Source of the DNA: Thermoflexus hugenholtzii JAD2 | GTDB lineage: Bacteria > Chloroflexota > Anaerolineae > Thermoflexales > Thermoflexaceae | Reading direction: 5' to 3' | Assembly: GCF_900187885.1 (NCBI RefSeq) | Contig: NZ_FYEK01000044.1 | Coordinates: forward strand, 62,001-126,000 | DNA: 64,000 nucleotides | The notes under the pieces: model-generated | What the model was told of the DNA's origin: nothing | Databases searched by the model: none | Seen by the model: only the letters and a program-made list of their open reading frames with translations | Shown here: positions 55,569 to 62,829 of the stretch, piece by piece | Layout: each line of letters opens with the position of its first letter | How positions within the stretch are numbered: position 1 is the first letter of the stretch | Program-made: the position numbers and the translations under genes

Positions 55569-58500
55569 GCCTCAATCGAACCAGCGTGGGATTGAAACAA
55601 AGGCCAGTTCTCCCTTGTCGCGATAAAAGGCGGGGCCTCAATCGAACCAGCGTGGGATTGAAACCGTGATCCATCAAGGTCCACTTCTGGGCGGAAAAGC
55701 GCCTCAATCGAACCAGCGTGGGATTGAAACTTTGCTGCGCGCTGTTGCCGCGTAGTCGTGCGACCCGCCTCAATCGAACCAGCGTGGGATTGAAACACCG
55801 CTGTGGGGGTCCGGGGGGCGAAGCCCCCCGGGGGCCTCAATCGAACCAGCGTGGGATTGAAACGACGGCAATGGCCGCAAATAGAGAACCACCTTGGGGA
55901 GCCTCAATCGAACCAGCGTGGGATTGAAACCAGAGCAGCAAGCATCCATCTCGACCAACTTCCACCCGCCTCAATCGAACCAGCGTGGGATTGAAACCAT
56001 GGCCGTCTGAAATGCGGCGCGCTGCGCGATGTTGGCCTCAATCGAACCAGCGTGGGATTGAAACTTGCCTCCTCCTTGCGAGGTCTGGAACAAACAAAGC
56101 CGCCTCAATCGAACCAGCGTGGGATTGAAACTACAGCTCTGGGTGAGCGTCCAGAACCACCACATGCCGGCCTCAATCGAACCAGCGTGGGATTGAAACC
56201 GAAGAGCGTTTTGCCCTCCACGCCCATCTTGCGGAGGCCTCAATCGAACCAGCGTGGGATTGAAACAATGGAGGGCCGCCTGCATCAAGCATCTGCGTTC
56301 GTGCCTCAATCGAACCAGCGTGGGATTGAAACAGTGAATCTTCAAAACCGGGATCTCTACCGTGTAAATCGCCTCAATCGAACCAGCGTGGGATTGAAAC
56401 GTTATCCAACACGTGCATAAATTCATGCACATTCCACGCCTCAATCGAACCAGCGTGGGATTGAAACTGGAGGCCCAGATCCGGAAGGCCTTCATCAAAA
56501 CCCGTGCCTCAATCGAACCAGCGTGGGATTGAAACATTTGCCTTGTCTTCATTGGCCTTTTGTGGGCAAGCCCGCCTCAATCGAACCAGCGTGGGATTGA
56601 AACAGGGGCCCTCCAGGATCCTCTCGGCTGAGGGATCGGGCCTCAATCGAACCAGCGTGGGATTGAAACACCTTGGCGACTACTGCAACCTTGCGGATGT
56701 GATCCGCCTCAATCGAACCAGCGTGGGATTGAAACTCTCTCCCCCCTCCTCTTTGGATTTAGCCCGGCCTTCGCCTCAATCGAACCAGCGTGGGATTGAA
56801 ACCATCCCGGGCCCGGGCCCAGCCCGGCTCCGGCAGCGTGCCTCAATCGAACCAGCGTGGGATTGAAACTGCCTTCCCCCTCATACCCCCAGTTCAGCCG
56901 GACCAAGCCTCAATCGAACCAGCGTGGGATTGAAACAGGTCTTGTGCTCCGCAGTCCACCCGGGGTTGATCCTGGCCTCAATCGAACCAGCGTGGGATTG
57001 AAACCCTGGCCAAAAAGGCCAGGGGCCCAAAGCCAAGGGGGCCTCAATCGAACCAGCGTGGGATTGAAACTCTTTTTGTTTTTAATTTGTCCCTCCGCCG
57101 GCGCGAAGCCTCAATCGAACCAGCGTGGGATTGAAACATCCACCCGCATCGAAGCCATCGCCGTGCAACTCAAAGCCTCAATCGAACCAGCGTGGGATTG
57201 AAACAACGGCGTCGTGATAGAGGATACTTACATCACGCTGAGCCTCAATCGAACCAGCGTGGGATTGAAACCCCGTGAGATCATAGTATTCATCGGAGAA
57301 CCAAGAGGCCTCAATCGAACCAGCGTGGGATTGAAACCAAAAGCGCCGCCCTCGCGGCGGGCGGCAGCGGAAACGCCTCAATCGAACCAGCGTGGGATTG
57401 AAACGGATTTCCCCTGGCCGGGCCACCGGCTGGCCCGGAACGGCCTCAATCGAACCAGCGTGGGATTGAAACGGCACAGTCACGAGGAACCCGGACAAAA
57501 AAGATATTGGCCTCAATCGAACCAGCGTGGGATTGAAACATCCCTCGCGGCGGGGGCCGCGTTGGATCGGGATCGGGCCTCAATCGAACCAGCGTGGGAT
57601 TGAAACCCGGAACGGCCGGCTTCGCCATGGCGCCCCCTCTCCGCCTCAATCGAACCAGCGTGGGATTGAAACGCCATGGGCCAGGAGGGCGATATAGCGC
57701 TCTAGACACGCCTCAATCGAACCAGCGTGGGATTGAAACGCAATATCGGCTGCCCGGTCACGAAGGCCTTGACATAGCCTCAATCGAACCAGCGTGGGAT
57801 TGAAACTTTCGCACAGCAACTTCCCCGGATCTCTCTGCCGGACTGCCTCAATCGAACCAGCGTGGGATTGAAACCCACATGCGGCGCGGAGGGGCATTGC
57901 CCGATACCCTGCCTCAATCGAACCAGCGTGGGATTGAAACAGTCTTGGGCTCGGTGCCCCGATTGTGGTGAAAATTATGCCTCAATCGAACCAGCGTGGG
58001 ATTGAAACCCAGGAGGCCGGGAATGTCTTCCCGGCTCACCGGGTGGCCTCAATCGAACCAGCGTGGGATTGAAACTTCTGTTATTCGGTTGGACTGACAA
58101 ATCCAGCGATTGCCTCAATCGAACCAGCGTGGGATTGAAACGGCTTTGTGGTCGTTGATGTAAACCTCGTTTACGGCTTGCCTCAATCGAACCAGCGTGG
58201 GATTGAAACGATTTCGGCTGGCTGCATCCCAAGACCTCGGGGAAGGGCCTCAATCGAACCAGCGTGGGATTGAAACTATGGGGTTCACTCCCTGATTTTC
58301 CCTCCCCCTCAGCCTCAATCGAACCAGCGTGGGATTGAAACCAGCTACCGCCTCGACAGGGCTCCAGCCCCACCAATGCCTCAATCGAACCAGCGTGGGA
58401 TTGAAACGAAATATTTGCCACCTTTGAGCAGAAACTCATCAATGCCTCAATCGAACCAGCGTGGGATTGAAACAAATAGCAACAAACAAAATCACTATTT

Positions 58501-61214
58501 GTTCGGTCCAAGCCTCAATCGAACCAGCGTGGGATTGAAACTGGCTTGGGTAAACGAGAACATATGGAAGCGGATCAGGCCTCAATCGAACCAGCGTGGG
58601 ATTGAAACGGCGGGTCATTTCCCCGGGCGGGAATCGAACCCGCCAGGCCTCAATCGAACCAGCGTGGGATTGAAACTCACGAAGTCGTCCTCCACCCCTT
58701 CGGGCGGGAAGGCGCCTCAATCGAACCAGCGTGGGATTGAAACCTGGGTCCGGGCGTATTGGCGCGCTCACTGGGAGCTGCCTCAATCGAACCAGCGTGG
58801 GATTGAAACACCCTTGGCCCGGATGCGGGCCTCGGTCCGGACCGGCCTCAATCGAACCAGCGTGGGATTGAAACGGCCGATCCGCCGCCTGCGGCTGCGG
58901 CGATTGTCTTGCCTCAATCGAACCAGCGTGGGATTGAAACATCACGCGCGTGGACATCCGGCGGATGTATCGACTCGCCTCAATCGAACCAGCGTGGGAT
59001 TGAAACCTCGGATGTTGACGAGGATCTGAGAGATCGGGAGGTGCCTCAATCGAACCAGCGTGGGATTGAAACGGCGGACGTTTTCAACCGTGTCGGCGGC
59101 TACTTCGAGCCTCAATCGAACCAGCGTGGGATTGAAACCCAGATCTTCCATCGGGCTATCCCTCCGGCAGGATGGGCCTCAATCGAACCAGCGTGGGATT
59201 GAAACATCATTTCGGCGGCGGAGCTCGAGGGCAAGGAGTTCGCCTCAATCGAACCAGCGTGGGATTGAAACGCATCCACGAGGAATGTTCGAGCAGATGG
59301 GACTGGCGTGCCTCAATCGAACCAGCGTGGGATTGAAACTGGCTTGGGTAAACGAGAACATATGGAAGCGGATCAGCCTCAATCGAACCAGCGTGGGATT
59401 GAAACTACACGCTGTTCATAATCCGCTTCCAGAACTGAGCGCGCCTCAATCGAACCAGCGTGGGATTGAAACTATTGGACACAGGGATCGCGAAAGGGCA
59501 CGAGGATCTGCCTCAATCGAACCAGCGTGGGATTGAAACGGCCAAAGCGTTGGGGGGGGCCATCAAAATTCATCTTGAGCCTCAATCGAACCAGCGTGGG
59601 ATTGAAACTTCTCTGCGCCGCCAGGCGTGCGTTACCGGGCGCGATGCCTCAATCGAACCAGCGTGGGATTGAAACCCTTAACGATCCTCCCGTGTTTGCT
59701 GACCAGCCCCAGGCCTCAATCGAACCAGCGTGGGATTGAAACCTATGTCAAGGCAATGGACCTGTTGAAGGAGGAGGTGGCCTCAATCGAACCAGCGTGG
59801 GATTGAAACCCATGGCGGCCTTCAACAAGTTTTCGGTCGTAGAATTGCCTCAATCGAACCAGCGTGGGATTGAAACAACTTCATCTTGAGAAGAAGATTG
59901 CTGAGGGCTACTGCCTCAATCGAACCAGCGTGGGATTGAAACTCCGCCATGGCGACCTTCAACAGGTTTTCCGCCGTGGGCCTCAATCGAACCAGCGTGG
60001 GATTGAAACCGCGCCCCGCCCCGGGCGGCGCGGATCAGGTATTCGGGCCTCAATCGAACCAGCGTGGGATTGAAACGAATCACCAGAGGAGTGGTCGTCA
60101 TGGCTTATCCCTGGCCTCAATCGAACCAGCGTGGGATTGAAACCGTGGGCCGCCCGGGCCAGCAGCATGGTCCGCTGGAGCCTCAATCGAACCAGCGTGG
60201 GATTGAAACCGGAGGAGGGCCTGGCGCGGCTGCGGGAAGGCGCTGGGCCTCAATCGAACCAGCGTGGGATTGAAACTCGCCCGCCGCGGGACGGCCCTGG
60301 CGGACTACCTGGCCTCAATCGAACCAGCGTGGGATTGAAACTCGATCTCCTCCCGAAGCCGCTGCGGGCGGATACGCGCCTCAATCGAACCAGCGTGGGA
60401 TTGAAACCGCTTCTGGATTAACCCCACCTTAGATCGCGCCCGCGCGCCTCAATCGAACCAGCGTGGGATTGAAACGATCCCCGCCGCCTACGACGAGGCC
60501 CGCCGGGACGGGGCCTCAATCGAACCAGCGTGGGATTGAAACCCGACGCGGCCGCCGAGGCCGCCGCGGCCATGGTGGGGCCTCAATCGAACCAGCGTGG
60601 GATTGAAACCCCAGAAGCAGGCCGCCTGTGGCCAGGGCCAGCCGGGCCTGCCTCAATCGAACCAGCGTGGGATTGAAACCGTCCCCCCCGTGATCTACCG
60701 CCGCTACGAGAAGGAGGCCTCAATCGAACCAGCGTGGGATTGAAACCCCAAATGCCTTCCAGCGTGCAGTGATCCCCATCCTCGCCTCAATCGAACCAGC
60801 GTGGGATTGAAACTTTCAACCAGTCGACGGAATAACCAGATACACGGTGAGCCTCAATCGAACCAGCGTGGGATTGAAACCAGCCCATCCCGGACCCCCG
60901 CCCAGAACCGGAGCCAGCCTCAATCGAACCAGCGTGGGATTGAAACGTCATCTCGGGGGGAACCAGAGTGGCCGCGAGGAGGCGCCTCAATCGAACCAGC
61001 GTGGGATTGAAACATGATCACAATGATCTCCCCGTTCTGCCTCAGAGTGGGCCTCAATCGAACCAGCGTGGGATTGAAACCAAAGCCCACCACGCTGTCG
61101 TGGATCGCGTATAATGTGCCTCAATCGAACCAGCGTGAGATTGAAACCAGGGGGTTGCCAGGTAGAGGGCGCCGCTCGGAAACAGCCTCAATCGAACCAG
61201 CATGGGATTGAAAC
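55569..61214 (+). CRISPR. CRISPR array, 85 repeats of 30 bp and 84 spacers
   Basis: I counted 85 repeat starts from 55569 to 61185. The repeat is 30 bp, begins GCCTCAATCGAACC and ends GTGGGATTGAAAC, giving the ATTGAAAC 5' handle usual for types I and III crRNAs. All copies look identical except the last two, which each carry one G-to-A change (61118-61147 and 61185-61214). Spacers are 35-40 bp, mostly 36-38. No cas gene is in the window, so type cannot be set. Open reading frames along the array in both strands encode only repeat-derived peptides. Confidence 0.98.
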
Positions 61215-62264: not shown

Positions 62265-62387
62265 ATGCGGAAGACCTGGATCCTGATCCTGGCGGCGGCG
62301 CTGGCCCTGGCCCCGGGGGCCGGCGCCGCCCGGGCCGAGGGGGATGGCCTCAATCGAACCCGTGTGGGACTGAAACCCGGGCGCTGA
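62265..62387 (+). CDS. 40-residue ORF: signal peptide running into a degenerate CRISPR repeat
   Basis: ATG with GGGGAGG upstream encodes a clear signal peptide (MRKTWILILAAALALAPGAG then ARAEG, cleavage near residue 24). The next codons are the degenerate repeat at 62347-62376, translated as GLNRTRVGLK, and the frame stops nine bases later. It looks like the 5' end of a secreted-protein gene cut short by the repeat; expression is possible but function is doubtful. Confidence 0.5.
   Translation: MRKTWILILAAALALAPGAGAARAEGDGLNRTRVGLKPGR
62347..62376 (+). repeat. Stray degenerate CRISPR repeat 1
   Basis: A 30-bp copy of the array repeat with three mismatches (AACCCGTGTGGGACTG in place of AACCAGCGTGGGATTG), 1.13 kb beyond the last array repeat and in the same orientation. 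Confidence 0.85.
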
Positions 62388-62774: not shown

Positions 62775-62804
62775 GTCGCCTCAATCGAACCAACTTTAGG
62801 ATTA
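62775..62804 (+). repeat. Stray degenerate CRISPR repeat 2
   Basis: The first 15 bases (GCCTCAATCGAACCA) match the array repeat exactly; the remainder (ACTTTAGGATTAGAA) is decayed but keeps GGATT at the right place. Same orientation as the array. Confidence 0.65.
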
Positions 62805-62829
62805 GAAGGAGTGAGGGCCCTTCTGCGCT

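Follow-up and report, generated by a model that had tools for sequence, protein, structure and literature searches.

Type I CRISPR-Cas systems are known to undergo primed adaptation, and the crRNAs of type I-B and related systems usually carry the 5' handle ATTGAAAC. The array studied here is located in a window of 64,000 nucleotides from Thermoflexus hugenholtzii JAD2 (contig NZ_FYEK01000044.1, positions 62,001 to 126,000) and resembled type I-B arrays in that its repeat ended in ATTGAAAC, its spacers were 35 to 40 nt long, the array was polar, and a type I-B cas gene set was identified in the genome. The presence of homologous spacers against related elements within one array is also ordinary for such systems. 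In contrast to type I-B systems with primed acquisition, the array was located away from the cas genes, and the pairing with an effector, the PAM, and priming are all putative here.

The array consisted of near-identical 30-nt repeats and unique spacers (Table 1). Substituted repeats were confined to the last 2 copies, each with a single substitution, which distinguishes the 2 sides of the array, with the trailer on the right and the leader on the left. Since the repeat terminates in ATTGAAAC, the + strand was taken as the crRNA strand. Two lone degenerate copies of the repeat were located 1.1 to 1.6 kb past the end of the array, and these are perhaps remnants of a longer array. It was also noted that the hairpin in spacer 4 is terminator-like and that spacer 46 contains a tRNA-like T-arm. 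No tRNA gene in the genome itself or in eight congeners matched spacer 46 with 3 or fewer mismatches, and its source is perhaps a phage-borne tRNA gene.

Table 1. Positions of the arrays, spacers, and associated features. Plain coordinates refer to the window.
Feature	Position	Strand	Description
CRISPR array	55569..61214	+	85 repeats GCCTCAATCGAACCAGCGTGGGATTGAAAC, 84 spacers; leader near 55.5 kb
Spacer 4	55797-55833		Near-perfect hairpin GGGGGGCGAAGCCCCCC
Spacer 45	58542-58578		Identical to spacer 57 over 36 bases
Spacer 46	58609-58646		Reverse complement of T-arm-like part GGCGGGTTCGATTCCCGCCCGGGGA
Spacer 57	59340-59375		11 spacers from spacer 45
Spacer 64	59810..59846	+	37 nt, CCATGGCGGCCTTCAACAAGTTTTCGGTCGTAGAATT; + frame MAAFNKFSVVE, - frame NSTTENLLKAAM
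Spacer 66	59943..59979	+	37 nt, TCCGCCATGGCGACCTTCAACAGGTTTTCCGCCGTGG; + frame MATFNRFSAV, - frame TAENLLKVAMA
Final two repeats around spacer 84	61118..61214	+	One substitution in each; trailer end
Lone degenerate repeat	62347-62376		GCCTCAATCGAACCCGTGTGGGACTGAAAC
Lone degenerate repeat	about 62778-62806		GCCTCAATCGAACCAACTTTAGGATTAGAAG
Second array, same repeat	L300:14534-19067 (G000:C3:92534-97067)		67 spacers
Array, different repeat	L298:7026-9400 (G000:C27, about 359025-361400)		Core CTGAAAACGGGTCTCGTCACTG, at least 29 copies
CARF protein like Csx1	L297:215-1183 (G000:C71, about 66214-67182)		Directly upstream of cas8b

The type I-B genes, which code for Cas8b, Cas7, Cas5, Cas3, Cas4, and Cas1, were located on contig C71, and the repeat of the array in the window was not found within 20 kb around them. 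Arrays with this repeat were identified on contigs C3 and C44, the latter being the array in the window, and both are most simply read as served by the type I-B system on C71. A type III-A locus was located on contig C27, near the array with the different repeat and a second cas1 gene, and further matches to Cas10 were found in the genome. Furthermore, the CARF protein encoded next to cas8b resembles Csx1, which is a type III signalling effector, and C71 also contains a match to Cas10, located another 8 kb or so upstream.

The initial annotation had drawn attention to spacers 64 and 66 as alignable after a shift of a few bases, and both the positions and the translations that it gave for them were confirmed. 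At a shift of 4 nt, 28 of the 33 overlapping bases were identical. The score of the pair was 20.5, as compared to a maximum of 9.5 among 33,975 composition-shuffled pairs, and the likeness is thus not due to chance. When the 151 spacers of the C44 and C3 arrays, which have their repeat in common, were all compared pairwise, this pair ranked third. The top-ranked pair was composed of the identical spacers 45 and 57, which reflect either an internal duplication or a second acquisition from the same site. A second homologous pair was found in the C3 array, in which spacers 32 and 56 had 25 of 27 bases in common on opposite strands. Judging from the similarity of the pair relative to the shuffles, the proposal that spacers 64 and 66 derive from homologous sites in related elements is well supported.

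No protospacer of spacer 64 or 66 was found in the genome itself, where the sole match was the array, in eight congeners, or in IMG/VR. Searches with the whole array yielded chance-level matches and no protospacer among 50,697 phages, and no match among 72,556 plasmids, and the sister array on C3 had no match among the phages. Self-targeting was considered and rejected, as neither the genome outside of the array nor the eight congeners contained a match. A search with the peptide pattern in 396 genomes of the host's class gave no credible target. Because the protospacers were absent from all collections searched, the target of the 2 spacers had to be inferred.

On the + strand, 3 of the 5 differences between the spacers were conservative (A/T, K/R, and V/A) and 2 were synonymous (TCG/TCC and GTA/GTG). 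However, the opposite strand of both spacers was likewise open, a point that the initial annotation had not raised, and reads STTENLLKAAM in spacer 64 and TAENLLKVAMA in spacer 66. The differences on this strand were A/V, T/A, and one synonymous Leu change, together with a change at the third position of a codon only part of which lies within spacer 66. The third codon positions of the 2 frames coincide on the same bases, and the substitution pattern therefore has no power to tell the strand or the frame, the 5 differences being about equally protein-like in either. The synonymous and conservative changes were thus present as the initial annotation had described them, but the open antiparallel frame explains them about as well, and the argument from synonymous changes for a frame beginning at a start codon was abandoned.

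A scan of IMG/VR with the + strand pattern identified 2 loci. One of these, L211, contains an open reading frame that begins with MAAFNKFSSFVEQLAEK and is preceded by a G-rich sequence that looks like a ribosome-binding site. Relatives of L211 were sought with 6 peptide patterns, 5 of which lie outside the N-terminus, and the 107 relatives identified in IMG/VR matched PHROG 644 (function unknown) and mostly started with MA[TAS][FY]NKF. A narrower + strand scan yielded a single locus of the same family, L291, with the start MAAFNKFNAVAALPWNGG and the closest peptide MAAFNKFNAVAALP. In a third locus, L271, with the start MATFNKFNSVAALPWNGG and the closest peptide MATFNKFNSVAALP, 27 of 37 bases were identical to spacer 66, in register. 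The spacer peptides aligned without gaps from the start methionine to both L291 and L271.

A profile of the N-terminus of this family gave scores of 21.5 bits for spacer 64 and 20.0 bits for spacer 66, and 19.0 and 17.6 bits, respectively, once the members found by spacer-derived patterns had been left out. The other spacers scored at most 3.2 bits, and the top score of 3,020 shuffles was 15.5 bits. The 2 peptides resemble the family N-terminus from the start methionine onwards, and the A/T difference between them falls on position 3, which varies between A, T, and S in the family. They differ from it in that Lys6, invariant in 30 aligned members and present in spacer 64, is replaced by Arg in spacer 66. 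Furthermore, residues 8 to 11 fit a minority of the members only, and Ser8 is otherwise present only in L211. MATFNKYHTF is the start of one member, found in a genome from the same class as the host, which indicates that phages or prophages of this kind are present in related hosts. No members were found in the genus, and the few prophage members in the class and phylum had mostly different N-termini. Spacer 11 of the C3 array, which ends with ATGGCGGTCTTC, was examined as a third member of the spacer family and rejected because a good reading was obtained on its other strand (KTAIVADTPAIL).

The initial annotation had placed the target of both spacers at the first codons of one gene. This is the best-supported reading, given the common start of the family and the profile scores of 17.6 to 21.5 bits, but it is weakened by the lack of a protospacer, by the reading of the opposite strand discussed below, and by the Arg at Lys6. 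From these sequence comparisons, we lean towards the conclusion that both spacers match the start codon region of a PHROG 644-type gene in 2 related phages, and consider it slightly more probable than all other explanations taken together. The search that retrieved the family used the peptide of the spacer itself as the query against a very large collection. For one spacer, a match this strong could be a chance outcome over the whole range of phage families, and the evidence from spacers 64 and 66 is not independent.

The spacers may alternatively come from homologous sites in some other gene, or in a non-coding stretch, of related mobile elements, with any likeness to a known family being accidental. 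That no protospacer was found in the collections searched agrees with such an origin, as does the poor coverage of hot-spring viruses, and with short peptides of 10 to 11 residues, a search of many families will produce a chance match to one of them. Two further candidates were not retained: the start of a T4-like portal protein, MATLNKFSLFG (L005, Portal_T4), matched the pattern more loosely, and TAENLL may be rubrerythrin-like. With an origin in some other gene or stretch, it would be coincidental that spacers 64 and 66 scored far above all other spacers on the PHROG 644 start profile and that the residue at which they show A/T is a variable one in this family. We regard this explanation as rather unlikely.

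A credible rival target, on the opposite strand, is a conserved motif in the interior of tail tape-measure proteins, similar to ESENLF[EK]V[SA]MG. A scan of IMG/VR with the relaxed - strand motif yielded 100 stretches, and 93 of the 98 matches examined were located in tail tape-measure proteins. The locus L004 carries the sequence ESENLFKVAMG and was matched to several PHROG tape-measure families, and annotated tape-measure genes from many phages are among its relatives. The spacer peptides share E-N-L and A-M with the motif, as well as the V in spacer 66, but contain L, K, and T-T or T-A where the retrieved family contains F, E, and E-S. The ESENLF residues were invariant in 22 aligned tape-measure members, as compared to TTENLL and TAENLL in the spacers. 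The strict form of the motif, with K, had 5 matches in 84,980 species genomes, none of them in a tape-measure gene, and the motif was hardly kept in the annotated tape-measure proteins of 7 phages.

A test of the register at the DNA level did not separate the 2 targets. For spacer 66, the fit to the forward register was no better than that to the tape-measure register, which was its best place in 50 of 77 loci, although the loci had been selected by that very motif. The tape-measure profile gave lower scores, 9.5 bits for spacer 64 and 14.6 bits for spacer 66, and the comparison of profiles thus favours the start codon of the PHROG 644-type gene, if not decisively. The remaining spacers matched the contigs of either family at noise level only. 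With a tape-measure target, the crRNAs would be antisense to the mRNA, which is a requirement of type III effectors, and type III genes are present in the genome, but the III-A locus is accompanied by an array of its own, in which the repeat differs. Taken together, we consider a tape-measure target improbable, though a serious rival. Finally, the exact duplication of spacers 45 and 57 indicates that copying can occur within the array, but a derivation of spacer 64 from spacer 66 by internal copying and mutation, through array rearrangement, is hardly credible, as copying of repeat-spacer units does not give a 4-base offset relative to the repeats, each spacer carries bases that the other lacks, and 5 changes in one spacer beside exact repeats would be odd.

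If the target is the PHROG 644-type gene, its genomic context points to a virion protein. The gene adjoins the head-closure and needle genes in phage Pam1, and is located between the capsid and tail-tube genes in the Manatee Spring podoviruses. The neighbouring gene codes for a tail fibre in L291 and for a decoration-like protein in L211. A confident structure model of the protein was obtained (pLDDT 90.9), which matched other viral proteins, including a structural protein of Agrobacterium phage 7-7-1. A sequence search of solved structures with the protein and a Foldseek search of the PDB with the model gave nothing significant. A structural aligner identified 9f4a, a baseplate/tail-tube interface protein of Klebsiella phage KP1 (Z 10.5, rmsd 2.5, 112 residues), and 8jou_a, an entry for the fibre and fibre-tail adaptor of phage GP4 (Z 7.2, rmsd 3.4, 106 residues), a Z value under 8 being insufficient alone. 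The modelled fold together with the virion gene neighbourhood suggests that the PHROG 644 protein is likely a tail or fibre adaptor.

With the start codon of a PHROG 644-type gene as the target, the 2 spacers would represent independent acquisitions from 2 related phages, with the sites at the start codon of the same small virion gene and offset by 4 bases. The crRNAs would then be identical to the coding strand and thus suited to the targeting of DNA rather than to recognition of the mRNA, with the type I-B system on C71 as the most plausible effector. Spacer 66 is nearer to the trailer and would be the older of the two, and with addition at the leader side, spacer 64 would have been acquired subsequently, against a relative that had diverged. 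Both spacer sequences agree over the first 8 bases of spacer 64, and the older crRNA may hence have primed the later acquisition.

The initial annotation had gone on to view the array as sampling a diversifying family at its conserved start, but 2 spacers alone are insufficient to demonstrate systematic sampling. Repeated sampling of related viruses is ordinary behaviour for a CRISPR array, and the C3 array contains another homologous pair. The broader notion that spacers are acquired by the host again and again at the start of one tail-adaptor gene, because this site has remained conserved throughout a lineage of thermophilic phages that is yet unsampled, such that the array would amount to a small alignment ordered in time, is a speculation to which we attach very little credence.

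The MATFNKF start and the ENLFKVAM tape-measure motif look alike on opposite strands, and peptides derived from spacers should for this reason be tested in both directions. If the PHROG 644-type gene is the target, the gene family, its start sequence, and the 2 variants would provide a handle for finding the phages that infect this host lineage, and the array would hold a record of 2 related infections ordered in time.
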